In this document: positions 6,294 to 63,088 of the stretch, in pieces
Numbering within the stretch: the stretch's first letter is position 1
How the letters are laid out: each line of letters begins with the position of its first letter
Assembly: GCF_014200495.1 (NCBI RefSeq)
Contig: NZ_JACHBY010000003.1
Location: 310,001-374,000 of the forward strand
DNA length: 64,000 nucleotides
DNA from: Mucilaginibacter geliditolerans
Lineage (GTDB): Bacteria > Bacteroidota > Bacteroidia > Sphingobacteriales > Sphingobacteriaceae
Direction: 5' to 3'
Program-made: the position numbers and the translations under genes
Notes under the pieces: model-generated
Databases searched by the model: none
What the model saw: only the letters and a program-made list of their open reading frames with translations
Told to the model about the DNA's origin: nothing

Positions 6294-6361
6294 ATTAATT
6301 TGATATAATCATCCCAACTCAACAATTGCGCCACAGCGAATTATAAAGCCATAATGACAGG

Positions 6362-6369
6362 CAAATGTA
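6362..6369 (-). promoter_or_regulatory. -7 box of a secA promoter
   Basis: TACATTTG on the minus strand matches the Bacteroidota sigma-ABfr -7 consensus TAnnTTTG. It would start transcription near 6356, giving secA a leader of about 60 nt. The -33 TTG is not well placed; the nearest is 12 nt upstream, inside the palindrome. Confidence 0.5.
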
Positions 6370-6370
6370 A

Positions 6371-6522
6371 GTATTTAGTATCAAGAATCGAAGTTTGGTA
6401 TCAAGTAGCTGGTATCAAGTATCAAGACTTTTTTAAAAACGTATAAACCGTTTATTATGAATGACTTTTATCAGCTCTTAAAAGAAAAAAATCTTGATAC
6501 TTGATACTAAATACTTGATACT
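6371..6522. repeat. word palindrome with TATCAAGTA units
   Basis: The left arm holds the word TATCAAG four times (6380, 6400, 6413 and 6420). The right arm holds the reverse complement CTTGATA three times. GTATCAAGTATCAAGAC followed by a T run (6412-6433) pairs with an A run followed by CTTGATACTTGATAC (6484-6507). It lies between the divergent secA and purD promoters, so it is not a simple terminator. The right arm supplies the TTG that may serve as the purD -33 element. Confidence 0.75.
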
Positions 6523-6533
6523 GCCAAAAAAAC

Positions 6534-6541
6534 TATCTTTG
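6534..6541 (+). promoter_or_regulatory. -7 box of the purD promoter, leaderless spacing
   Basis: TATCTTTG is an exact TAnnTTTG match ending 5 nt before the purD ATG at 6547. A TTG at 6515-6517 lies 16 nt upstream. With transcription usually starting about 4-7 nt past the box, the mRNA would begin at or next to the start codon. Confidence 0.6.
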
Positions 6542-6546
6542 ACCCC

Positions 6547-7821
6547 ATGAACATCCTGATCTTAGGTTCGGGCGGAAGGGAAAGCGCCTTTGCCTGGAAA
6601 CTATCACAAAGTAAAAAATGCGGGCAGCTTTTTATAGCACCTGGTAATGCCGGCACCGGCCATTACGGAACTAATGTAAACATAGCCGTTACTGATTTTG
6701 AAGGCATAAAGCAATTGGTTTTAGAAAAAGGCATTAACCTGGTATTGGTTGGCCCCGAAGAACCATTGGTTAAAGGCGTACATGATTTTTTTCTGGCGGA
6801 TGAGCAGCTGAAAAGCATCCCGGTTATTGGTCCGCAGGCCGAGGGCGCACAGCTGGAAGGCAGCAAGGATTTCTCCAAGCAGTTTATGGAGCGCCACAGC
6901 ATTCCGGCCGCTGCATCAAAAACCTTTACCCGCGAAACTTTGCAGGAGGGTTTTGATTACCTGCCAACAATAGGCCTACCCATAGTTTTAAAAGCCGACG
7001 GACTTGCCGCAGGCAAAGGTGTACTGATATGCCTTACCGTACAGGAAGCCCAGGAAGAATTGATTGAAATGCTTACCAATGCCAAATTTGGCGCAGCCAG
7101 CGCAAAGGTTGTGGTTGAGCAATTTTTACAGGGGATAGAGTTATCCGTTTTTGTACTTACCGATGGCAATAATTATAAAATACTGCCATCAGCTAAAGAT
7201 TATAAACGCATTGGCGAGGGCGATACCGGCTTAAATACCGGCGGTATGGGTTCTGTATCCCCTGTTCCGTTTGCTGATGAGGTATTTTTAAAGAAAATAG
7301 AGGACCGCATCATTATCCCGACCATCGAGGGACTGAAAAGCGAGAATATCCCTTATAAAGGTTTTATTTTTATCGGGCTGATGAATTGCTGCGGCGACCC
7401 TTACATGATAGAATACAACTGCCGTATGGGCGATCCGGAAACGGAAAGTGTAATGCCGCGTATAGAATCGGATTTTGTAGAATTATTGCTAGGCGTAGCC
7501 GAAGGTAATTTAAATGAAAAAGAACTCATCATATCCAGCAAAGTAGCTGCTACCGTAATGATGGTTGCAGGTGGATACCCGGGCACCTATTTAAAAGATA
7601 GGGTGATGACCGGCATGGAAAACATCCGCGATTCCTACATTTTCCACGCGGGTACTTATACCGATGGGGACGAGATAAAAACTTCAGGCGGCAGGGTGAT
7701 CGCTATTACCTCGTTGCAGGATGATATGTTCACAGCACTGCAACAAGCCACCGCTGATGCCAGTCGCATTTATTACGACGGCATGTATTTCAGGAAAGAT
7801 ATTGGGTTTGATTTGTTGTAG
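6547..7821 (+). CDS. purD: phosphoribosylamine--glycine ligase
   Basis: 424 residues, full length for PurD (GAR synthetase), the second step of de novo purine synthesis: phosphoribosylamine + glycine + ATP. The N-terminal motif NILILGSGGRESAFAWKLSQ is diagnostic. The ATP-grasp core follows: GLPIVLKADGLAAGKGVLIC, VVVEQFLQGIELSVFVLTDG, the LNTGGMGSVSP loop, and the metal site EYNCRMGDPETESVMPR. It is monocistronic as laid out, divergent from secA and convergent with the thioredoxin genes. The upstream -7 box leaves essentially no leader, and no Shine-Dalgarno sequence is visible. Confidence 0.98.
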   Translation: MNILILGSGGRESAFAWKLSQSKKCGQLFIAPGNAGTGHYGTNVNIAVTDFEGIKQLVLEKGINLVLVGPEEPLVKGVHDFFLADEQLKSIPVIGPQAEGAQLEGSKDFSKQFMERHSIPAAASKTFTRETLQEGFDYLPTIGLPIVLKADGLAAGKGVLICLTVQEAQEELIEMLTNAKFGAASAKVVVEQFLQGIELSVFVLTDGNNYKILPSAKDYKRIGEGDTGLNTGGMGSVSPVPFADEVFLKKIEDRIIIPTIEGLKSENIPYKGFIFIGLMNCCGDPYMIEYNCRMGDPETESVMPRIESDFVELLLGVAEGNLNEKELIISSKVAATVMMVAGGYPGTYLKDRVMTGMENIRDSYIFHAGTYTDGDEIKTSGGRVIAITSLQDDMFTALQQATADASRIYYDGMYFRKDIGFDLL

Positions 7822-7833
7822 TTTGGTGAGTGG

Positions 7834-7881
7834 TTGATTGGGTTGATTAAGTGAGTAGTAAAACTTAATCAATCCAATCAA
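7834..7881. terminator. bidirectional hairpin between purD and the TlpA genes
   Basis: TTGATTGGGTTGATTAAG (7834-7851) pairs with CTTAATCAATCCAATCAA (7864-7881): 18 pairs, one of them G-U, with a 12-nt loop. It separates two convergent stop codons (7821 and 7893). It is built from the word GATTGA, so it also belongs to the word-palindrome class. Confidence 0.6.
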
Positions 7882-7892
7882 TACTCGATTAA

Positions 7893-8948
7893 TCACATCT
7901 TTCCGAATAACTCGACCAGCTTGCTTTCCAATCCGTCCTCATCCAGGTTTTGAGCTATGATCTTCCCATCCGGATCGATCAAAAAATTTTGTGGAATGCC
8001 ATGAACAGCATACAATTTAGCAACCCCACTATTCCAGCCTTTTAAATCAGACCCCTGGGCCCAGGTTAGCCCATCTTTATGAATAGCCTTAAGCCATACA
8101 TCTTTACCTCCGGTATTATCTAATGAAACTCCAAGAATTGTAAAATTTTTACTTTTATACTTATTAAATTCTTTTACTATGCTGGGGTTAGCATGGCGAC
8201 AAGGCCCGCACCATGATGCCCAAAAATCAATTAAAACATATTTCCCCCTAAACGAGGATAGCTTTACCGGATTGTTGTTAGTATCTGGCAAAGTAAACTC
8301 AGGAGCTATTGAGCCATTAGTTACACTTTTGAGCGTTATTGATTTTTTTTCATATTCCACACCTGCCTTGCTAAAACGCACAGTTGCCGAAAGCGACCTA
8401 AATAAAGTTTCATCTTCAGCAGTTATTGTATTCACTCCGCTCAAATCTTTTAATGCCAGGTCAAGACTGATATAGGAGTTTGGATTTTCCCTTATGAATT
8501 TTTTATCCAATACTTTTTTTTCTGAATCTGATTTAGCTGTGTTGGTTAGAACTATATATCTATAATAATCTTCATTTAATTTATTACCTGAAAACCTGGA
8601 GTTACGTATAGAATCATTGCCACTAATAATTGTGGTTCCATTTGCCAGGTATATTAGCTTAGTATCAACGTTATCTTTCCCCCATATATCGTCTAAATTC
8701 ACTCCTTTATAATCAACCATAAGTTGGGCAACAACTGTGTCAATAACGGTGCCCTTGAACTCAAATTCGCCATTTTTAACAACAGTAGAATCCCAATGGC
8801 TTTTTGCTCCTTTCACTTCATATCTATAAACCAGATACACTTTGGCTGGTGCCTGAATGTTTTTGATCTTTCCTTTTATTAAAAAATTCTGCTGAGCCAG
8901 CGAGCAAACCGGAGCAATTAAAAACAGGAACAGGATGAATTTTCTCAT
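7893..8948 (-). CDS. DUF4369 + TlpA-like thioredoxin, copy 1
   Basis: 351 residues. Signal peptide MRKFILFLFLIAPVCSLAQQ, then a beta-rich N-terminal half of the DUF4369 type (FLIKGKIKN...AKVYLVY, FEFKGTV, ANGTTIISGNDS), then a TlpA/AhpC-TSA domain from about 210. The redox centre is WCGPC with cysteines at about 247 and 250, followed by the TlpA-typical VSLDNTGGKDVWLKAI and the cis-proline region HGIPQNFLIDPDGKIIAQ. Predicted to be a periplasmic thiol reductase. It is the last of three tandem paralogues (9060-10202 and 10383-11537), all reading leftward; this copy has the shortest linker between the halves. Confidence 0.92.
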   Translation of the reverse strand: MRKFILFLFLIAPVCSLAQQNFLIKGKIKNIQAPAKVYLVYRYEVKGAKSHWDSTVVKNGEFEFKGTVIDTVVAQLMVDYKGVNLDDIWGKDNVDTKLIYLANGTTIISGNDSIRNSRFSGNKLNEDYYRYIVLTNTAKSDSEKKVLDKKFIRENPNSYISLDLALKDLSGVNTITAEDETLFRSLSATVRFSKAGVEYEKKSITLKSVTNGSIAPEFTLPDTNNNPVKLSSFRGKYVLIDFWASWCGPCRHANPSIVKEFNKYKSKNFTILGVSLDNTGGKDVWLKAIHKDGLTWAQGSDLKGWNSGVAKLYAVHGIPQNFLIDPDGKIIAQNLDEDGLESKLVELFGKM

Positions 8949-8976
8949 TTATGTTTTTCAATAAGATTATTAATAA

Positions 8977-9041
8977 CGAAAGTCCGAAATTAAAGGGGCA
9001 AAGCACAATACTTTAACCTTCTTTAACTTTCGGACTTTCCC
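8977..9041. repeat. word palindrome, GGACTTTCGG units
   Basis: ACGAAAGTCCGAAATTAAAG near 8977 is nearly the reverse complement of CTTTAACTTTCGGACTTTCC near 9021; the word TTTCGGACT then recurs at 9045. It fills the gap between two tandem thioredoxin genes. The same word family reappears at 17127-17224, 8 kb away. Confidence 0.65.
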
Positions 9042-9059
9042 GTCTTTCGGACTAAAAAC

Positions 9060-10202
9060 TTATATCTTCCCGAACAATTCGGCTAATTTCTTTTCCAGAT
9101 CATCACCAAAAAGATCTTTAGCTATGATCTTTCCGCTTGGATCTATTAGCAGGTTTTGTGGGATGGCTTGGATGCCATATAATTTGGCGGCATCGTTATC
9201 CCAGAATTTAAGATCGGATACATGGTTCCAGGTTAGGCCGTCGTGGTTGATGGCTTTGATCCAGGCATCTCTTTTACCGGGCCTATCTAAAGATACACCC
9301 AGTATAGTAAAGTTTTTACCTTTATAGTTATTGAATGCCTTTACCACGTTAGGGTTTTCTGCACGGCAAGGGCCGCACCATGATGCCCAAAAATCAACCA
9401 GCACATATTTACCCTTGAATGATGACAGACTGATCATTTTGCCATTGGTATCAGCCTGGGCAAAGTCGGGAGCCATTGCGCCTACTGCTACCGCTTTAAG
9501 AGTGTTTAAGTAAGTTTGATATTTTGCACCTGCTGCGCTTTTTTGCAGCGATGGTGATAATTTTGAGAACACCGGCTGCAATTCATTCGGATCAGGATAT
9601 GGGCCGCCCATACCTCTTAATGCTTGCAGGCTCATGTATGAATCAGGGTTGGCAGCGATAAACTGTTTGTTCAAATCTTTTGATTGTACACCGATCACAC
9701 TATCTTTTTTATCGATATAGTCGCCAAATTCCTTGGTTTCTCTTTTCTCTTTTGGCGCGGCATAGTATTCTGCTGTTAATGCGTCTTCAGCATCGGTAGC
9801 AGGTTTTACAAATGCTTTATAACGTACATTATCCTCGTTTACTTTTGTACCGGTAACTTTAGCATGTGATAATGAATCAGCACTGATAATATTGGTTGTT
9901 CCATTAACCAGGAAAAGAGAAACGATGTCCTGTTTTGATTTCCTGTCGATATTCATAATACCGATGCCTTTATAATCCAGCAATAATGTAGCCTGAGTTA
10001 TATCCTTTACTTCGCCGCTGAACTGGAACACACCATTTTTTATGGCAGTAGAATCTGACACGCGTTTGCCATCGGCACTGTAAGTTAAGAATATTTTTGA
10101 AGGCGGATTAACCGAGCCAACCTTGCCCTTTATCACATACTTTTCCTGTGCAAACAGCACCGCCGGCGAGGCCACCAGCATGAATAGAATTAGTTTTTTC
10201 AT
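9060..10202 (-). CDS. DUF4369 + TlpA-like thioredoxin, copy 2
   Basis: 380 residues. Signal peptide MKKLILFMLVASPAVLFAQE; DUF4369-like N-terminal half (YVIKGKVGSVNPPSKIFLTY, VFQFSGEVKD, LVNGTTNIISADS); a charged, helical linker (YYAAPKEKRETKEFGDYIDK); and a C-terminal TlpA domain with WASWCGPCRAENPNVVKAF and the closing segment GIQAIPQNLLIDPSGKIIAK. Very close to its neighbours in the catalytic half, and more divergent in the linker. The family reduces or isomerises periplasmic disulfides; the DUF4369 half is of unknown role. The gap on either side carries a hairpin, so the three genes may be separate transcripts or an attenuated operon. Confidence 0.92.
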   Translation of the reverse strand: MKKLILFMLVASPAVLFAQEKYVIKGKVGSVNPPSKIFLTYSADGKRVSDSTAIKNGVFQFSGEVKDITQATLLLDYKGIGIMNIDRKSKQDIVSLFLVNGTTNIISADSLSHAKVTGTKVNEDNVRYKAFVKPATDAEDALTAEYYAAPKEKRETKEFGDYIDKKDSVIGVQSKDLNKQFIAANPDSYMSLQALRGMGGPYPDPNELQPVFSKLSPSLQKSAAGAKYQTYLNTLKAVAVGAMAPDFAQADTNGKMISLSSFKGKYVLVDFWASWCGPCRAENPNVVKAFNNYKGKNFTILGVSLDRPGKRDAWIKAINHDGLTWNHVSDLKFWDNDAAKLYGIQAIPQNLLIDPSGKIIAKDLFGDDLEKKLAELFGKI

Positions 10203-10257
10203 TGTTATTTTAAATTTTATAATTCGAAAATGAGGTCAGGCATAAAAGTATGTAATA

Positions 10258-10380
10258 AAGAGTCAGGATGCAAGAGTCAGGAATCAGGAGATAAAAAGCG
10301 AAGAGTCAAAAATTAAGGTAAAAGCATTGACAACGCAATCCTCCTATCCTGATTCCTGACTCTTAATTCTTGGCTCTTAA
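10258..10380. repeat. word palindrome, AGAGTCAGGAATCAGGAG units
   Basis: AAGAGTCAGGAATCAGG (about 10272-10288) is the exact reverse complement of CCTGATTCCTGACTCTT (10348-10364), with a loop of roughly 60 nt. AGAGTCAGGATGCAAGAGTC gives extra tandem copies of the word on the left, and TTAATTCTTGGCTCTT on the right. Close relatives of this word fill 25264-25392 and 59345-59590. Confidence 0.75.
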
Positions 10381-10382
10381 AA

Positions 10383-12773: not shown

Positions 12774-12779
12774 GTCTTA

Positions 12780-12906
12780 TAATGTGCGAATATGCGGATG
12801 TGCAAATATGCAGATTGTTTTGATATGCATATGTGCGCTGTGCAAAATATGCAGCTTTTTTCAATGTGCAGATCACAAATGTGCGTTTGCCCCATTTTAT
12901 ATTTGC
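12780..12906. repeat. ATGTGCAAATATGC word array, G-strand orientation
   Basis: The gap between the arginase-like and AraC genes is almost entirely degenerate copies of ATGTGCAAATATGC (AATGTGCGAATATGCGGATG, TGCAAATATGCAG, ATATGCATATGTGCGC, TGCAAAATATGCAG, AATGTGCAG, AAATGTGCG). The same word in reverse-complement orientation fills 13905-13995 and 15770-15826, so the AraC gene is flanked by inverted copies. Two overlapping short ORFs here are not genes. Confidence 0.75.
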
Positions 12907-12908
12907 AC

Positions 12909-13817: not shown

Positions 13818-13904
13818 TTTTGTGTTTGATAATCTATAATACAAAGATGAGAATATTACTGTTCAATAGTTTGCAACAATCAATCCGTTATTTGTACATT
13901 TCAA

Positions 13905-13995
13905 ACTATATGCAAAAATAGGCATCGCTGATAATTCGTATTTGCACATACGCCTATCAATATGCACATTTGCACATACGCATAGCTGCACATAA
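13905..13995. repeat. ATTTGCACAT word array, C-strand orientation
   Basis: Divergent gap between the AraC gene and the epimerase. The units GTATTTGCACATACGCC, ATATGCACATTTGCACATACGC and AGCTGCACAT are inverted relative to 12780-12906 and parallel to 15770-15826. The array reaches within a few bases of the epimerase ATG, so it would form most of that gene's leader or promoter. Confidence 0.7.
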
Positions 13996-13998
13996 ATA

Positions 13999-15390: not shown

Positions 15391-15831
15391 TCAAGATTTC
15401 CGACACATACGGGCGAAGGTTTGCCCCATTGTTTGTGTACTCACCATAGGTGTTCGGAAGATATATTTTCTTACGAATATTGAGCGTGAGGTCACCCTGA
15501 GGCACTCGAAGGGTAAGCGTAAAGGCCTTTGCCCGCATGCTTCGAGTGCCTCAGCATGACATCCTTTTTTAATCTTCCGAACACCTATGGTCTCCCCACA
15601 AACAATCCGTAAACATATTGACAGCTGTTTGTGAGGACACAAACAGCGGGAGAAAAGGCCTCTGCGCTCACCCTTCGACTAGCGCTCAGGGTGACACCAC
15701 CACGCGTTATTTCCATAGCTCCAACAAACCCTATCAACTTAATCAACTAATCATCCAAAAAATCATCCAAAATTTGCACATTTGCACATCCGCGTATTTG
15801 CACACTAAAGCTTATATCTGCACATCAACTA
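15391..15831. repeat. 441-bp gap filled with nested REP-like palindromes
   Basis: No gene is seen here. Outer arms: ACCATAGGTGTTCGGAAGAT (15443-15462) and its exact reverse complement at 15572-15591, with pairing extending outward through ATTGTTTGTG (near 15428 and 15605). Inside lies a GTCA...TGAC element (15491-15560) with arms CTGAGGCACTCGAAG and CTTCGAGTGCCTCAG. A separate perfect hairpin, GCTGTTTGTG-AGGA-CACAAACAGC, is at 15624-15647. A half element with CTTCGACTAGCGCTCAG is at 15671-15695. ATTTGCACAT words fill 15770-15826, up to the next start codon. Confidence 0.8.
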
Positions 15832-17124: not shown

Positions 17125-17126
17125 GG

Positions 17127-17206
17127 CAGTCGGGAAGTCCGGAAGTAAAAAAGCTTTACTTCCGGACTTTTTTGCTTTTTTCTATCTCTCTTTCGGACTT
17201 CCCGAC
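17127..17206 (+). terminator. intrinsic terminator with alternative outer hairpin
   Basis: AAGTCCGGAAGTAAA (17135-17149) pairs perfectly with TTTACTTCCGGACTT (17155-17169) around a 5-nt loop and runs into a T tract, a strong terminator 10 nt after the phosphatase stop. The left arm can also pair with CGGACTTCCCGACT (17193-17206), an alternative, longer fold. The words are those of 8977-9058. Confidence 0.8.
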
Positions 17207-17228
17207 TTACGGACTTTCGGACTAAAGA

Positions 17229-19777: not shown

Positions 19778-20851
19778 ATGACAGAGACGCTGGACATCAA
19801 GATCACCAAAACAAACCATTCGCGCTTAGCGGAAACCGATTTTAACAATTTGCCATTCGGAAAAATTTTTACTGACCACATGTTCGTGGCAGATTACGTC
19901 GATGGCGAGTGGAAGAATTTTCAGGTCATTCCCTACGGCGAAATTGGATTGAGTCCCGCTATTTCGGCCCTGCATTACGGGCAATCATTTTTTGAAGGCA
20001 TAAAAGCTTACAAACATGCTGATGGCACTGTTTCAATCTTCCGCCCGGATAAAAATGCTAAACGTTTTAATAAATCGGCAGAAAGATTGTGTATGCCTAC
20101 CATACCCGAGGATATCTTTTTACAAAGCCTTGCAGCTGTAGTTGAAATTGACCGCGACTGGGTACCTACACAAGCCGACCATGCTCTATACATCAGGCCG
20201 TTTATGTTTGCTACCGACCCATTTTTGGGCGTTGCACCATCAACAACCTATAAATACATGGTATTGCTATGCCCTGTAGGCCCTTATTTTTCAAAAACAT
20301 TAAGGGTTAAAATAGAGAACTTTTACACCCGCTCTGCTGAAGGCGGTATGGGTTATGCAAAATCATCAGGCAACTATGGTGGCGCTATGCTGCCTGCTAA
20401 AAAGGCCGTTGAAGAAGGTTTTGACCAACTGATATGGACCGACGCAAAGGACCATGCTTATGTTGAGGAAATGGGCGCGGCAAACGTAATTTTTGTATTG
20501 GATGGCAAAGTAACAACCCCATCAACCCGTGATACTATTTTGGATGGCGTAACCCGCGATACAGTTTTAGCACTGGCCCGTGAATGGGGTTACCCCGTTG
20601 AAGAGCGCCGTGTTTCAGTAGCTGAAATTATTGAAGGCGCTAAAAACGGTAAGCTTACTGATGCTTTCGGGGCAGGTACAGCAGCTACCATTGCACCGGT
20701 TGGCTCAATAAGCCTTAATGGCGAAGAGTACTTTTTAAGCGACCCTAAAACACGCGAGTTTTCACAACGTGTATTTAAGGAAATGAACGCTATAAAATAC
20801 GGCACTACGCCTGATACCCACGGCTGGAACTTTGTTGTGAGTGGTGAGTAG
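19778..20851 (+). CDS. ilvE: branched-chain amino acid aminotransferase
   Basis: 357 residues, fold-type IV PLP enzyme that makes or breaks Leu, Ile and Val with 2-oxoglutarate. Visible: ALHYGQSFFEGIKAYKHADG (substrate loop), FRPDKNAKRFNKSAERLCMP, ALYIRPFMFATDPFLGV, the PLP lysine in GGMGYAKSSGNYGG, DAKDHAYVEEMGAANVIFV, and the phosphate-binding AFGAGTAATIAPVG. The length and the KSSGNYGG box fit the long (eukaryote-like, BCAT_beta) subgroup common in Bacteroidota. It has its own terminator at 20885, so it appears monocistronic. Confidence 0.96.
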   Translation: MTETLDIKITKTNHSRLAETDFNNLPFGKIFTDHMFVADYVDGEWKNFQVIPYGEIGLSPAISALHYGQSFFEGIKAYKHADGTVSIFRPDKNAKRFNKSAERLCMPTIPEDIFLQSLAAVVEIDRDWVPTQADHALYIRPFMFATDPFLGVAPSTTYKYMVLLCPVGPYFSKTLRVKIENFYTRSAEGGMGYAKSSGNYGGAMLPAKKAVEEGFDQLIWTDAKDHAYVEEMGAANVIFVLDGKVTTPSTRDTILDGVTRDTVLALAREWGYPVEERRVSVAEIIEGAKNGKLTDAFGAGTAATIAPVGSISLNGEEYFLSDPKTREFSQRVFKEMNAIKYGTTPDTHGWNFVVSGE

Positions 20852-20884
20852 TGAACGGTGAATGAAACTATGATTTTATGATAT

Positions 20885-22270: not shown

Positions 22271-22285
22271 CAGCGAATAATACGT

Positions 22286-22369
22286 GTCATTGCGAGCGTT
22301 AGCGCGGCAACCTCGTCGCTCACATATTAAACGCGACGAGGTTGCTTCGTCGTTCCTCCTCGCAATGAC
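22286..22369. repeat. REP-like element, GTCATTGCGAG family
   Basis: 84-bp element from GTCATTGCGAGC to CTCGCAATGAC, with an inner inverted repeat CAACCTCGTCGC / GCGACGAGGTTG. Nearly identical to 38269-38353. Fragments of the same ends are at 225-236 and about 62776-62790. Confidence 0.85.
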
Positions 22370-22390
22370 ATGGTTTTTATTCATTTCAGA

Positions 22391-22422
22391 AAACTTACGA
22401 AGTTTTTAAACTTCGTAAGTTT
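22391..22422. terminator. perfect hairpin between convergent genes
   Basis: AAACTTACGAAGTTT (22391-22405) and AAACTTCGTAAGTTT (22408-22422) are exact reverse complements with a 2-nt spacer, and both ends are A/T tracts. It probably terminates both the glycine-rich gene (ending 22270) and the opposing gene (ending 22481). Confidence 0.7.
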
Positions 22423-22480
22423 CATAAAGGCCACATAAAAGATATTGCAAACTGCCCACCACAAACTGCAAACTGAATAA

Positions 22481-25195: not shown

Positions 25196-25263
25196 AGGTA
25201 TAAAAATAAATTATATGTGCTTAATAATTGCCAGGCGATACATAACAAATATGTTACATGATG

Positions 25264-25392
25264 GGAAAGAGCCAAGAAAAAAGAATCAAGAGCCTAGATG
25301 CAAGAATCAGGATAAAATGAGAAAGATATTAACCGCTTTGTCTGCAAAATAGTCTTTCTTGGTTCTTGACTCTTAATTCCTGGCTCTTGTAA
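25264..25392. repeat. word palindrome, AAGAGCCAAGAATCAAG units
   Basis: The left arm has AAGAGCCAAG, AAGAATCAAGAGCC and CAAGAATCAGGAT; the right arm has GGTTCTTGACTCTTAATTCC and TGGCTCTTG. The pairing is imperfect but extensive. Same word family as 10258-10380 and 59345-59590. Lies between the plug protein and dcd, both leftward. Confidence 0.7.
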
Positions 25393-25393
25393 A

Positions 25394-28111: not shown

Positions 28112-28150
28112 TTTTTAGTCTTGAGTCTGAAGTCTTTAGTGAAAAAACTG

Positions 28151-36844: not shown

Positions 36845-36899
36845 AGGTGAAAGCTGAAAGGCGAAAGCTTAAAGCTTAAAATCAATAGTAAATTATTAA

Positions 36900-38246: not shown

Positions 38247-38268
38247 GGTTGGGTTGTGTGGCATTAGT

Positions 38269-38449
38269 GTCAATTGCGAGCGATAGCGCGGCAACCTCGT
38301 CGCATGCATATTGAACGCGACGAGGTTGCTTCGTCGTTCCTCCTCGCAATGACATGATTAGTGAAATTGTGGAAGGGTCATGCTGAGCGCTAGTCGAAGC
38401 ATAAGCGTAAGGCCTTTGCCCACATGCTTCGACTAGCGCTCAGCATGAC
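38269..38449. repeat. two adjacent REP-like elements
   Basis: First, the GTCA(A)TTGCGAG family (38269-38353), nearly identical to 22286-22369. Second, a GTCATGCTGAGC family hairpin (38377-38449) whose 24-bp arms are exact reverse complements around a 25-nt loop TAAGCGTAAGGCCTTTGCCC. The same loop occurs at 15491-15560 between different arms. Located between convergent DUF58 and mscS genes. Confidence 0.85.
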
Positions 38450-38466
38450 AACCCTCTCTTAAAGCA

Positions 38467-39252: not shown

Positions 39253-39276
39253 AGTGCCACGAAGTTAAGGAATTAA

Positions 39277-39378
39277 TTATTTTCCGTAAATAGATATAAA
39301 AAGCTCAGGGCCTTTAAAAAACACCCACTCAACTATGTGGGATTGTATCTGTCTTGTTTTTTCTGTTAGATGTTTCAT
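39277..39378 (-). CDS. possible 33-residue peptide
   Basis: A short frame ATG-AAA-CAT...TAA just upstream of mscS on the same strand, 24 bp from its ATG. It encodes an amphipathic peptide beginning MKHLTEKTRQIQSHIVEWVF and ending FISIYGK. Basic helix followed by a hydrophobic end is compatible with a leader or small membrane peptide. No strong ribosome site or promoter is seen, so this is a candidate only. Confidence 0.25.
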   Translation of the reverse strand: MKHLTEKTRQIQSHIVEWVFFKGPELFISIYGK

Positions 39379-39460
39379 GTCGTGGGTTATTCAAATGCCA
39401 TGCCTGATTTATGATGTATCAGAATTGTTATTCAAATTTACGCAGAAAACATACGATTAG

Positions 39461-39490
39461 ATTTATTAATCAATCATTTGATTAATAAAT
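39461..39490. other. perfect AT-rich 30-bp palindrome (operator-like)
   Basis: ATTTATTAATCAA (39461-39473), TCAT spacer, TTGATTAATAAAT (39478-39490): an exact 13-bp inverted repeat in the groEL-mscS gap. Lacks a T-run and lies 46 bp from the groEL-side terminator, so it looks like a protein-binding site or a promoter-proximal operator more than a terminator. Confidence 0.5.
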
Positions 39491-39535
39491 GACCATCCGC
39501 TTACTTTTAAATGACTAAACAGGCCCATTTAAAGC

Positions 39536-39572
39536 AAAACACCCTGTCTGAAATATCAGACAGGGTGTTTTA
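39536..39572. terminator. terminator downstream of groEL
   Basis: AAAACACCCTGTCTGA (39536-39551) is the exact complement of TCAGACAGGGTGTTTT (39556-39571) with a 4-nt loop, and has A/T tracts on both ends. On the minus strand it ends groESL transcription about 95 bp past the groEL stop; it could also work in the other direction. Confidence 0.8.
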
Positions 39573-39584
39573 GTGTATATTATA

Positions 39585-39662
39585 TTAGTCGGTAGTCTTT
39601 AGTTCTAAGTCCCTAGTAAAAATAATTGACTTAAGACTCTAGACTATCGGCTTGGGACTTTC
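39585..39662. repeat. word palindrome, AGTCTTTAGTTCTAAGTC units
   Basis: AGTCGGTAGTCTTTAGTTCTAAGTCCCTAG-type words on the left; TGACTTAAGACTCTAGAC and ATCGGCTTGGGACTTTCGAC on the right, roughly the reverse complements. Fills the gap between the groEL terminator and the groEL stop. A short copy of the word (TTAGTCTTGAGTCTGAAGTC) sits at 28114-28133. Confidence 0.6.
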
Positions 39663-39665
39663 GAC

Positions 39666-41300: not shown

Positions 41301-41320
41301 GTTTTTTCTATTTTTGAATT

Positions 41321-41411
41321 AGTGATTTGTTTTCTGAATTATTGAATGACTGATTTATTGAATTATTGATTTTTTAAAATTCCATAATTCACTCAGTCAC
41401 TAATTCAATAA
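41321..41411. repeat. word palindrome, GAATTATTGAATGACTGA units
   Basis: The left arm repeats GAATTAGTGATTTG, GAATTATTGAATGACTGATT and TTGAATTATTGAT; the right arm has CATAATTCACTCAGTCAC and TAATTCAATAATTA. Almost the whole groES-groEL spacer. An RNA hairpin here could separate groES and groEL expression levels or mRNA stability. Confidence 0.65.
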
Positions 41412-41705
41412 TTATAATATAACGTAGATATCAGACTCTCTCATTACTAAATAATCCTTACCATCGATAGGGAATTCCTGGCCGGCAAATTTACCGTAGA
41501 TTACTTTATCACCTGCCTTAACTGTCATAGGTATTAATGTACCTGTTTGATCAGCATATCTTCCCGGGCCAACTGCTACTACAGTTCCGTATTGAGGTTT
41601 TTCTTGTGCAGTTTCAGGAATGTAGATACCTGATGCAGTTTTTGTCTCAGCCGGAGCAGCTTCAATTAAAATTCTGTCTCCAATAGGTTTAACGTTTAAT
41701 GACAT
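41412..41705 (-). CDS. groES: co-chaperonin GroES
   Basis: 97 residues, standard for the GroES lid: VKPIGDRILIEAAPAETKTA, the mobile loop SGIYIPETAQEKPQYGTVVA, VGPGRYADQTGTLIPMTVKA and EFPIDGKDYLVMRESDIYVI. First gene of the groESL operon. I looked for a CIRCE operator (TTAGCACTC-N9-GAGTGCTAA) upstream and did not find one, so regulation is probably by another route, as is usual in Bacteroidota. A small inverted repeat TGCCATCATGGCA at 41847-41859 is present upstream. Confidence 0.98.
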   Translation of the reverse strand: MSLNVKPIGDRILIEAAPAETKTASGIYIPETAQEKPQYGTVVAVGPGRYADQTGTLIPMTVKAGDKVIYGKFAGQEFPIDGKDYLVMRESDIYVIL

Positions 41706-59268: not shown

Positions 59269-59591
59269 GAGCTCAAAACTACGATTCTTTTTTCACCGGG
59301 TACGGGAAAAAGACCGTATTTGATAATATATGTAAGGTTTAGCATAAAATAGAGCCAAGATTTAAGAGTCAGGAATCAAGATTACAAAAACCAATAAATA
59401 CGGAAATTATATCGCGACAGAAAAAGGAAAAATATATTATTGTGATGCCGGTTTCTATTAGCTATTTATTGGTTTATCCTGATTCTTATATTTTGGTTCC
59501 TGATTCATTCCCAGAGTCAAGAGCGAGGATACAAGAGTCAAGATTTTATTTTTCATCCTGATTCATGGTTCTTAACTCTTGACTCCTACAA
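59269..59591. repeat. 323-bp gap dominated by AGAGTCAGGAATCAAG word palindrome
   Basis: No gene is seen here. Left: AGAGCCAAGATTTAAGAGTC, AGGAATCAAGAT and CCAATAAATA; right: TATTTATTGG, ATCCTGATTC, GGTTCCTGATTC, AGAGTCAAGAGCGAGG, ACAAGAGTCAAGAT, ATCCTGATTCATGGTTC and AACTCTTGACTCC. The largest and most complex of the word palindromes, with direct repeats on both arms. Confidence 0.75.
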
Positions 59592-61028: not shown

Positions 61029-62453
61029 TTATAGCCCCAGGAAATATTCAGAGAAATTTAACAACTCTTGCTCCTCAAATTGCCCGGTAATTAATTGTAA
61101 ACCTAACGGCAAACCTTTGCTATTATTGCCCGCAGGCAATGAAATTGCCGGAACACCAGATAACGAAGCCTGAACGGTAAAAATATCTGCCAGGTAAGTT
61201 ACAACCGGATCGCTTTCCTCCTTGCCTATTGCGTATGCAGGTTCGGGGGCTGTTGGGGTAAGTATAAAATCGTATTCCTGTAATATTTCTTCTGTTTTTT
61301 GGCGGATGAGGCGGCGCGCCTTTTGTGCCTTGGCATAGTAAGCATCGTAATAACCGGCACTTAACACAAATGTGCCAAGCATTATACGGCGCTTTACCTC
61401 TTTGCCAAAACCTTCGGAACGTGATTTTTTATAGGCTGATTGCAGATCGGATGCCTCAGGGCTCCGGTAACCATAATGTACGCCATCAAAGCGTGCAAGG
61501 TTTGATGAAGCCTCGGCAGTAGCCAGGATATAGTACGATGGTACCATGTAATCCAAATAATCAAAAGCTATAGGGTTTACGGTATGGCCTTCGGCTCGCA
61601 ACTTATCAATATATTTACTCAGTGTATTTTTTACCTCAGCATCTACACCCGGACTGGATAATGATTCCTGCAGATAGGCGATCTTTTTCTTTTCCGGCGC
61701 TTTAATATTCGCACTGAATGCGGGAACAGGCTTTTGGGCCAGTGTGCTGTCATACTCATCGGGGCCTGCCATAACTTCCAATAACAGGGCGGCATCCTCT
61801 ACAGATCTGGTGATCGGGCCCACCTGATCGAAAGATGAGGCATAAGCTATTATGCCATACCTTGAAATACGGCCATAAGTGGGTTTAAGGCCGATAAGCC
61901 CACAAAATGAGGCGGGCTGCCTTACTGAACCACCAGTATCGGTACCTATGGCTGCATGGCACATACCGGCCTGCACCGCTACCGCGGAACCACCTGATGA
62001 ACCACCCGACACTTTAGTATTATCGGCATAGTTTTTTACCGGGCCATAATATGAGCTCTCATTACTGGCGCCCATGGCAAACTCATCGCAATTACAGCGA
62101 CCTATGATTATGGCATCTTCGGCCAATAAACGCTCAACTATGGTTGAGGAATAAATGGAGGTAAAACCTTCTAAAATTTTTGATGATGCGGATACCTTGT
62201 GATCTTTATAGCAGATATTATCTTTTATTCCGATAACCATGCCTGCAAGTTTACCGGCACTCCCAAGCTGGATGCGGGAATCAATATCATTGGCACGTGT
62301 TAATGCTTCCTGTTCAAACACTTCGTTAAAAGCATTTAAATGGGCATGCTGTTTAATTTTTTCTAAATAACCTTTTACCAGTTTTTCAACAGTAATTTCC
62401 CCACTTTGCAACCCGCTCTTTATTTCAGTTAAAGAGGAATAGAATTTAGCCAT
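61029..62453 (-). CDS. gatA: aspartyl/glutamyl-tRNA amidotransferase subunit A
   Basis: 474 residues from ATG 62453 (MAKFYSSLTEIKSGLQSGEI). The longer frame to 62678 translates repeat DNA (its extra 75 residues read as FKSS/LKSSNQQ words) and is rejected. Amidase signature: catalytic Lys in GMVIGIKDNICYKDHKVSAS, the cis-Ser/Ser pair in VSGGSSGGSAVAVQAGMCHA and IGTDTGGSVRQPASFCGLIG. Transfers ammonia from Gln to misacylated Glu-tRNA(Gln)/Asp-tRNA(Asn) with GatB and GatC, which are not in this window. Confidence 0.97.
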   Translation of the reverse strand: MAKFYSSLTEIKSGLQSGEITVEKLVKGYLEKIKQHAHLNAFNEVFEQEALTRANDIDSRIQLGSAGKLAGMVIGIKDNICYKDHKVSASSKILEGFTSIYSSTIVERLLAEDAIIIGRCNCDEFAMGASNESSYYGPVKNYADNTKVSGGSSGGSAVAVQAGMCHAAIGTDTGGSVRQPASFCGLIGLKPTYGRISRYGIIAYASSFDQVGPITRSVEDAALLLEVMAGPDEYDSTLAQKPVPAFSANIKAPEKKKIAYLQESLSSPGVDAEVKNTLSKYIDKLRAEGHTVNPIAFDYLDYMVPSYYILATAEASSNLARFDGVHYGYRSPEASDLQSAYKKSRSEGFGKEVKRRIMLGTFVLSAGYYDAYYAKAQKARRLIRQKTEEILQEYDFILTPTAPEPAYAIGKEESDPVVTYLADIFTVQASLSGVPAISLPAGNNSKGLPLGLQLITGQFEEQELLNFSEYFLGL

Positions 62454-63088
62454 GCGGCTAAAATAAAAATTAAAATTGATTTGGAGACTTGTTGATTTGA
62501 AGATTTGGTGATGTACCGGTTTGAAGACTTGTTGATTTGAAGATTTGAGGATGTGCTGATTTGAGGAAAATGTTAATTTGAAGATTTGAAAATGTGCTGA
62601 TTTGAGGATGACGGATCGTCTGTTCAAGCGTCTACGCATGAACAGGCGACGAAATAATAACGCGCTCCGGTAACTCACCCGGCTTCGCTAAGCCGCTCGT
62701 CTGCCCTCTCTTCGCCGTTGGCGGAAAGAGGGCGATTGAATTATAGCTTATTTGAAGTGATCTTACTCCAGCATCATTGCGAGGAACGAAGCAATCCCCG
62801 ACTGTAAAGAGATATTCCGTTGGCTCAAGCGTCTACGCTTACCTGACATTAAAAAAAACAACATGATTTTGTAGGATCTTTAGCGTGGACGCTAAAATCT
62901 TTTTTCATTCAAGCGTGGGCGCTTGAACGGGCGGGAAATAATGTTGATTTGAAGATTTGAGGATGTGCTGATTTGAAGATGCACTACCTTTTAACTTAGA
63001 AAATGATCTGAAAATTTGAAGACATACCAACTGATAGCGGTAATTTAACCTTCAAATTTTCAAATCAACATATTTTCAAATAAAGTTT
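62454..63088. repeat. 635-bp gap: mosaic of four repeat families
   Basis: No gene is seen here. GATTTGAAGATTTG words at about 62475-62608 and again at 62940-62985 in the same orientation, with inverted partners TTCAAATTTTCAAATCAAC at about 63050-63080. Between them lie AAGCGT-ACGCTT hairpins (62619-62645; 62820-62935), a CCCTCTCTTCGCCGTTGGCGG hairpin (about 62703-62732) and a GCGAGGAACGAAGCAAT half of the 22286 family. The layout suggests later elements inserted into an earlier word palindrome. Confidence 0.75.

Follow-up and report, generated by a model that had tools for sequence, protein, structure and literature searches.

Intergenic word palindromes of Mucilaginibacter geliditolerans as the probable ends of small IVP elements

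Introduction

The IVS of the Coxiella 23S rRNA is a 428-nt element in which an ORF of the PF05635 family lies within complementary ends that make up a 28-bp stem, and such IVSs with an S23/IVP ORF, known from Coxiella and Leptospira, are thought to have been acquired horizontally (PMC4990558). ORF-driven mobility of the IVS has been proposed there (citing Ralph and McClelland, 1993), and the function of PF05635 was, in 2016, termed unknown (PMC4990558). The intergenic elements described in this article resemble the 23S rRNA IVS in that their full-length copies contain an S23/IVP (PF05635) ORF, one and the same word occurring with and without the ORF at the mreB-mreC junction, and in that their ends are complementary (at 122 of 142 loci, at ≤10/200 shuffles). 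Unlike the IVS, the loci considered here do not lie in rRNA, protein-type ORFs being present on both sides at 105 of 122 (the other 17 were not placed), and there are many copies and words per genome, with arms of five heptads.

REP and REPIN elements are short intergenic palindromes dispersed by a RAYT that is encoded elsewhere, and they occur as copies without the gene. Short intergenic palindromes and gene-less copies are found here as well, but the partner of REP is a Y1 transposase, whereas here it is IVP, and none of the seven Y1_Tnp loci of the genome studied has the comb described below in both arms. Terminal inverted repeats and derivatives without the ORF are shared with MITEs, from which the IVP elements differ in that their ORF lacks a transposase domain and their ends are degenerate heptad arrays. 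The accessory protein Avd (bAvd) of diversity-generating retroelements belongs to a related fold family; those retroelements, however, have a reverse transcriptase as partner, and the genome studied has no RVT_1 match. Intrinsic terminators differ in position, since 98 of 122 IVP elements lie between tandem genes and not at transcript ends.

Heptamers in tandem have also been reported. The TAACTGA heptamer forms intergenic direct arrays, also in five Bacteroidetes, with 169 sets, one of them indirect, near start codons, and the searched text on these repeats mentions neither IVP nor S23 (PMC4679880). Its tandem complement reads AGTTATC, which by its letters fits the A-G-W-N4 unit of the IVP arms, but TAACTGA is one fixed word in direct arrays, whereas the IVP elements have many words in inverted pairs. 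The same grammar may lie behind such heptamer arrays reported elsewhere, including the cyanobacterial STRR.

The window analysed here is a stretch of 64,000 nt (C3:310001-374000) from the 6.5-Mb genome of Mucilaginibacter geliditolerans (G000). A first-pass annotation, made from its letters, had pointed to a class of gaps in which a degenerate word is repeated in tandem and then inverted, and for which it knew of no described family. The open-access PMC literature searched likewise yielded no fitting description of the layout and none of IVP genes with heptad arms. This article describes the palindromes of the window, the IVP genes found between similar arms elsewhere (loci numbered L...), and the comparison with a syntenic relative (G026).

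Word palindromes of the window

Gene calls came from a simple ORF rule rather than from a gene finder, and each gap was scored for its excess of inverted 6-mer pairs over 300 dinucleotide shuffles. Nine of the fourteen named places exceeded the shuffles, and palindromicity beyond chance expectation was thus borne out for these: no shuffle was as high (0/300) at 6294-6546, 7822-7892, 10203-10382, 17125-17228, 39253-39665, 41301-41411 and 59269-59591, and five of 300 were at 8949-9059 and 25196-25393. An ordinary hairpin also lies within 39253-39665, and part of that gap's inverted excess does not come from words. The supposition of one inverted layout throughout held only for these nine, the rest being direct repeats, single arms, borderline or in-ORF. 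The gap 12774-12908 is borderline as a palindrome (21/300), no clear palindrome excess over dinucleotide shuffles was found at 13845-13998 (190/300), 15643-15831 (222/300) or 36845-36899 (74/300), and direct repeats are strong (0/300) at 12774-12908, 13845-13998 and 15643-15831. The array at 62475 sits in a called ORF (61029-62678) and so was not a gap in the shuffle test. As the first-pass annotation had noted, divergent gaps are included, for example 6294-6546. The arms are listed in Table 1.

Table 1. Arms and palindromes of the window, with RG units and shuffle results (inverted excess unless stated otherwise)
Feature	Position	Strand	Comb and shuffles
Left arm, TATCAAG element	6398..6434	+	5 RG units at 7-nt spacing; gap 0/300
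Right arm, TATCAAG element	6485..6521	-	5 RG units
TTGATTGG palindrome	7828..7886 (arms 7828-7852, 7863-7886)	.	0/300; without RG comb
AGTCCGAA palindrome	8978..9039 (arms 8978-9003, 9011-9039)	.	comb just 2 and 2; 5/300
Left arm, AGTCAGGA/AATCAGGA family	10258..10289	+	5 RG units
Right arm, AGTCAGGA/AATCAGGA element	10347..10378	-	7 RG units with 7-nt margins
ATGTGCAG-family words, direct arrays and weak palindrome	12784..12908	.	inverted 21/300, direct 0/300
TTTGCACAT words, one side (complement of ATGTGCAAA)	13934..13983	.	inverted 190/300, direct 0/300
TTTGCACAT words, single arm	15772..15825	.	inverted 222/300, direct 0/300
AGTCCGGA palindrome, 8-nt unit	17128..17207 (arms 17128-17145, 17190-17207)	.	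8-nt comb 3 and 3; wider margins 4 and 5
Left arm, AGCCAAGA/AATCAAGA family	25267..25298	+	6 RG units
Right arm, AGCCAAGA/AATCAAGA element	25357..25388	-	5 RG units
Left arm, AGTCTTTAG family	39587..39611	+	5 RG units with margins
Right arm, AGTCTTTAG element	39628..39652	-	5 RG units with margins
GAATTATTGA palindrome	41337..41413 (arms 41337-41374, 41376-41413)	.	0/300; without RG comb
First of two adjoining AGTCAAGA-family palindromes	59352..59499 (arms 59352-59401, 59451-59499)	.	5 and 3 RG units
Second AGTCAAGA-family palindrome	59514..59585 (arms 59514-59544, 59555-59585)	.	5 and 3 RG units

Further heptads of the TATCAAG left arm lie outside the tabulated piece, at about 6374-6397, and the right arm is upstream of a purD-like ORF (6547-7821). 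Both arms reach five RG units or more at only four places of the window. The PF05635 genes of the genome all map outside the window (none of the six matches of the profile search falls within it), so an IVP gene was invisible from the window sequence. No Rfam match was found inside the window.

Some minor features accompany these elements. The two adjoining palindromes at 59352-59585 belong to one word family, and the same word is present in a shorter G026 gap. REP-like CATTGCGAGG / TGCTGAGCGCTAGTCGAAGC palindromes at 22271-22480 and 38247-38466 are shared by sequence and form a class apart from the word palindromes, and unpaired word arms, which may be decayed elements, were seen by eye at 28112-28145, 20840-20866, 22445-22480 and 36851-36877.

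Across 400 kb of G000, inverted arms were found at ≤1/100 shuffles in 73 of 182 gaps, a figure that takes terminators, REP-like CATTGCGAG palindromes and word palindromes together. Three or more RG units are present in each arm of 11 of the 73 and no more than two in the other 62, among which at least eight word palindromes were recognized by eye. A k-mer listing was dominated by AT-rich and REP words.

Dispersed words and their change at fixed sites

The first-pass annotation took the sequence not to be shared between most gaps, a view contradicted by the TATCAAG word and arm, which recur genome-wide as dispersed families. The genome contains a 17-nt TATCAAG word 46 times and the reversed pattern six times; a degenerate 31-nt arm has 42 matches (a few of them overlapping) against two for the reversed control, and one identical letter string stands on contigs C5, C6 and C8. 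Adjoining arm matches on opposite strands are arranged + then - in 14 pairs and - then + in none, so the word points from outside inwards.

G026 is syntenic with G000 at about 90-95% nucleotide identity, and an orthologous gap exists for 133 of the 182 G000 gaps. When 22 gaps were scored with 14 hand-made word patterns, the word was the same in 12, different in four, present in G000 only in four and in G026 only in two. Ten of the scored gaps were chosen for alignment of the two genomes, one of them being too long. Gaps 102 and 109, scored as G000 only, carry another word in the G026 alignment and join gaps 122, 141 and 179 as in-place word changes; gaps 91 and 163 appear empty or decayed in G026. 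In the purD gap (6294-6546) the flanks are alike up to the element, where TATCAAG words stand opposite arms and a loop of ATGTGCAG words in G026. The expectation that layout would be kept in orthologous gaps while the word changed is confirmed by these alignments and by the mreB-mreC junctions described below, yet 12 of the 22 scored gaps have the same word in the closest relative. Among the aligned gaps there was no clean filled/empty pair with a readable target-site duplication.

The gap 7822-7892, one of the four scored as different, had also been considered a word replacement and was dropped, since G026 is without the first of two TlpA-like paralogues and its AGTCCGAA palindrome therefore corresponds to the next G000 gap. 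The two TlpA-like ORFs adjoin each other in the window (7893-10202). Elsewhere, at C3:224566-224810, a CATTGCGAG palindrome is found in G000 where G026 has a ATGTGCAG right arm, as if inserted into that arm.

IVP genes between inverted arms

That IVP genes lie between heptad arms, and that words change at fixed sites, is the descriptive part of this account and is stated with great confidence. A profile search of the genome gave six PF05635 (23S_rRNA_IVP) matches, and all six genes (L118-L123) are, by eye, flanked by inverted word arms, with six different words; five of the six loci passed the shuffle test. A small ORF that encodes a PF05635 protein lies inside one word pair of G026. The family is multi-copy, with 1 to 15 matches in 60 of 61 genomes of the genus. 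The frame of L122 contains an in-frame stop. TATCAAG words occur at none of the six genes, despite the 42 such arms in the genome, and G026 and G029 each have an IVP with the TATCAAG word.

Together with loci of the genus, 31 of 36 pass at ≤1/100 shuffles, the others being L120 (4), L145 (25), L147 (13, truncated), L148 (3) and L153 (8). Small control genes of the same genome pass in 9 of 49 cases, because the genome is rich in palindromes. The set was extended to 145 loci (L147 was left out as short), made up of own, genus and phylum-sample loci and the best 80 of at least 578 named matches; some were entered twice, with identical arms in at least L124/L194, L127/L209 and L138/L226. Inverted arms were found in 122 of the 142 testable loci at ≤10/200 shuffles (own 5/6, genus 27/29, phylum 25/30, named 65/77) and in 100 at ≤2/200, and 20 missed the 10/200 threshold. 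Eight genomes of other groups, namely MAGs labelled Methanophagales, Atribacterota, Alpha- and Betaproteobacteria, Limnohabitans and Chlorobiota, whose contigs may be misassigned, plus Gloeocapsopsis, contributed 29 of 30 loci, two of them too short; 24 of 27 testable loci pass at ≤10/200, at least five of which (L265, L266, L268, L269, L270) are already counted elsewhere. At that threshold, no significant arms were found in this set at L284 or at either Gloeocapsopsis locus. A null distribution from mismatched pairs (maximum 199) was discarded, as homologous flanks inflate it.

Heptad grammar of the arms

The grammar of the arms was read from 214 arms of ≤60 nt out of the 244 arms of 122 IVP loci. 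Letters match at lags of 7, 14 and 21 nt in.594,.581 and.553 of comparisons, against about.305 in shuffles, and the repeated unit is A-G-W-N4 with a period of 7, the last unit often reading AGAC. The longest run of G at 7-nt spacing, here called the comb, comprises five units in 119 of the 214 arms, six in 15 and seven in four; fewer units are found in the remainder (four in 33, three in 24, two in 13 and one in six). Arms with four or fewer units at 7 nt number 64, not including 12 unit-poor arms that the preceding counts contain. With 21-nt margins, the run is five in 108, six in 48 and seven or more in 30 of the 244 arms. The best lag was 7 in 95 of 110 loci, 8 in 14 and 9 in one; at 8-nt spacing, runs of exactly five RG are found in seven arms. 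On the IVP tree, which has few columns and several long branches, the period-8 families show only weak clustering (10 changes, shuffled 13.3, 2/500).

Both arms have a comb of four or more RG at 78 of 142 IVP loci; among the controls this is so at 1 of 192 small ORFs and at none of 564 larger genes. The controls were drawn from G000 and G026 alone and the IVP loci from many genomes; the other 64 IVP loci do not have such a comb. Read from outer to inner end, the arms contain A.36, C.09, G.23 and T.32. The first-pass description of left arms as purine-rich is better stated as an excess of G over C in IVP arms, seen in 219 of 244, with equality in 15 and the reverse in 10.

At 35 loci with full combs, the two arms of one element are.795 alike, against.686 for arms of different elements of a family, and one-arm changes (1076) outnumber matched ones (461). 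Mismatches between arms at 95 loci show no wobble bias, 104 being compatible with G-U pairing and 120 not (p =.32), and the five G are kept alike in 5' and 3' arms (50 and 54 of the 95). A reading of the arms as an RNA stem was rejected on the negative wobble asymmetry test and on arms that are about 80% alike. The absent wobble bias and the equal comb of the two arms suggest either that DNA is what is recognized or that the arms are homogenised.

Position in operons

Most IVP loci (98 of 122) lie between genes of the same strand, with the ORF in sense at 97 and antisense at one; four of the remainder are convergent, three divergent and 17 not placed. The native junction is ≤30 nt at 91 of the 98 tandem loci, compared with 93 of 207 tandem gene pairs in the G000 sample, and the arm edge is ≤10 nt from a stop codon on 90 of 129 sides and from a start codon on 53 of 82. 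As the first-pass annotation had argued from divergent gaps, terminators alone do not suffice to explain a layout that is found inside operon junctions. The sense bias can reflect insertion with regard to the transcript, or the loss of ORFs to which no host promoter gives transcription.

The mreB-mreC junction was picked since G000 has an IVP element there, and its figures are no genome average. A match was found in 59 of 61 genomes; 30 loci were read and 29 scored, L315 being left out. A word palindrome is present in 28 of these 29 species, L316 having none, and was assigned by eye to families AGAGATTAG (nine), AGATTTGAGATATGAG (six), GTGAGTGG (five), AAGAATCAAG (three), GAATTATTGA (three) and TTACGATT (two). 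The AGAGATTAG family is found five times with an IVP ORF and four times without. Over the 29 junctions, the medians are 4 nt from the mreB stop to the arm and 8 nt from the arm to the mreC ATG. In the 24 junctions under 200 nt, the G comb reaches five in 10 of the 5' arms and in 5 of the 3' arms, so that ORF-less copies preserve it less faithfully. The word label is without phylogenetic signal on the MreC tree (16 changes against a shuffled mean of 17.8, as low in 25/200), and G000, G026 and G029 have three different words. At gmk-nadD, elements of 444-489 nt with GTTTGCAG-type words occur at 6 of 30 loci read, the others having GTTCATAG-type arms, other repeats or none; in G026 this junction is 52 nt, with NadD identical.

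The IVP protein and its words

Three of the 122 loci were left aside for the length or lack of their ORF; over the other 119, protein identity correlates with shared arm 5-mers (r =.385, 0/500 permutations as high). Proteins 70-75% identical have a shared fraction of.59 in their arms and.39 in their spacers, and for those 80-85% identical the fractions are.71 and.26; under 55% identity the correlation is weak (r =.145), with fewer 5-mers in common between arms than between spacers. The IVP relatives 2gsc and 2rld each have five chains, and 2gsc is described as a homopentameric toroid (PMC4990558). Scans of four IVP proteins against Pfam, NCBIfam and PADLOC found no transposase, only IVP/four-helix-bundle and Avd-like families; the L121 protein scores 40.6 bits on Pfam bAvd (cut-off 40) and that of L144 31.3, below the cut-off. 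The RVT_1 reverse transcriptase has no match in the own genome, and among 148 genomes of the phylum IVP occurs in 116 and RT in 58, so that at least 58 IVP genomes are without RT. Movement through a resident reverse transcriptase is disfavoured on both counts.

Discussion

The word palindromes are probably the ends of small IVP elements, with or without the ORF. Such an element would be about 0.5 kb long with the ORF and about 0.1 kb without it, the full form carrying one PF05635 / TIGR02436 'IVP' four-helix-bundle gene, and each end would be a tract of typically five A-G-W-N4 heptads that runs from outside inwards and is inverted at the other end, with an 8-nt unit in a minority of families. 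The IVP pentamer may grip one tract on a single strand with one protomer per heptad, and the variable bases of the heptad would give each IVP subfamily its word. We regard this presumed binding of a pentamer to five heptads as evenly poised between acceptance and doubt. The TRAP ring offers a model for such a protomer-per-unit grip on a single strand. A single flexible strand is, by reasoning rather than as a result, the simplest fit: rotation by about 240 degrees per 7-bp step makes duplex DNA unable to track a ring of five-fold symmetry, and the 8-nt families would shift the phase. Dispersal and turnover alone point to movement, in which the element would move or be copied with the help of IVP and host enzymes. 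An occupied site may be readily retaken by another element, so that sites would persist while words turn over, and ORF-less copies, such as those of the window, would be derivatives.

A fuller picture, offered tentatively and with slightly less than even confidence, is of a widespread class of transposase-free mobile elements in which a pentameric ring reads a five-word heptad code at both ends of its gene, subfamilies and words diverge together, the elements travel as sense passengers of operons, and a junction stays filled through a genus with its words swapped repeatedly. An exact DNA grammar tied to PF05635 makes the function of the family testable in one binding experiment, and it suggests a protein-to-repeat recognition with a checkable stoichiometry of five units and five protomers. 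The same link accounts for a conspicuous sort of repeat between the genes of Bacteroidota, and it is an unusual pattern of evolution for one junction to have its word replaced in place across a genus.

The sense bias of 97:1, the tight junctions and the filling of 28 of 29 mreB-mreC junctions while words change would also suit intercistronic hairpins that serve the host, the stem separating or protecting cistrons (by an RNase III cut or 3'-end protection), IVP acting as an autoregulator on the 5' tract and any word being tolerated. Such hairpins are an unlikely explanation, however, given arms that show no G-U wobble bias, have an equal comb on the 5' and 3' sides, are just 0.795 alike and change more often singly than in matched fashion, and given palindromes in divergent gaps as well. 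The scatter of mreB-mreC word families on the MreC tree, like that of shuffled labels, and the conserved flanking genes are what would be expected if homologous recombination in the flanks imported alleles with other elements, without any movement of the elements. Allelic exchange of this kind is nevertheless improbable, since the G000 and G026 flanks are alike up to the element border and within one genome a family is found again at many sites that are not linked, which needs dispersal.

A mutational origin gap by gap, with slippage producing the tandem words and template switching at a hairpin producing the opposite arm, agrees with the greater likeness of arms within an element (.795) than between elements of a family (.686), but is very improbable in view of words common to many gaps and species, a fixed polarity, a preference for five units and one protein family inside. 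A template-switch origin in pure form is not supported either, given the recurrence of the same words in unlinked places and other species, the preferred number of units, and arms that flank one protein family. The view that the palindromes are ordinary terminators, or are of the REP/REPIN type with a Y1 transposase (RAYT), could draw on the seven Y1_Tnp matches of the genome, six of them flanked by inverted arms, and on its REP-like CATTGCGAG family; this is extremely improbable as the source of the word palindromes, the comb being absent from both arms together at all seven Y1_Tnp loci (at most three units in one arm) and IVP elements sitting inside operon junctions. Six of the seven Y1_Tnp loci (L355-L360) have inverted arms of their own, without the comb, and are candidate RAYT-REP systems.
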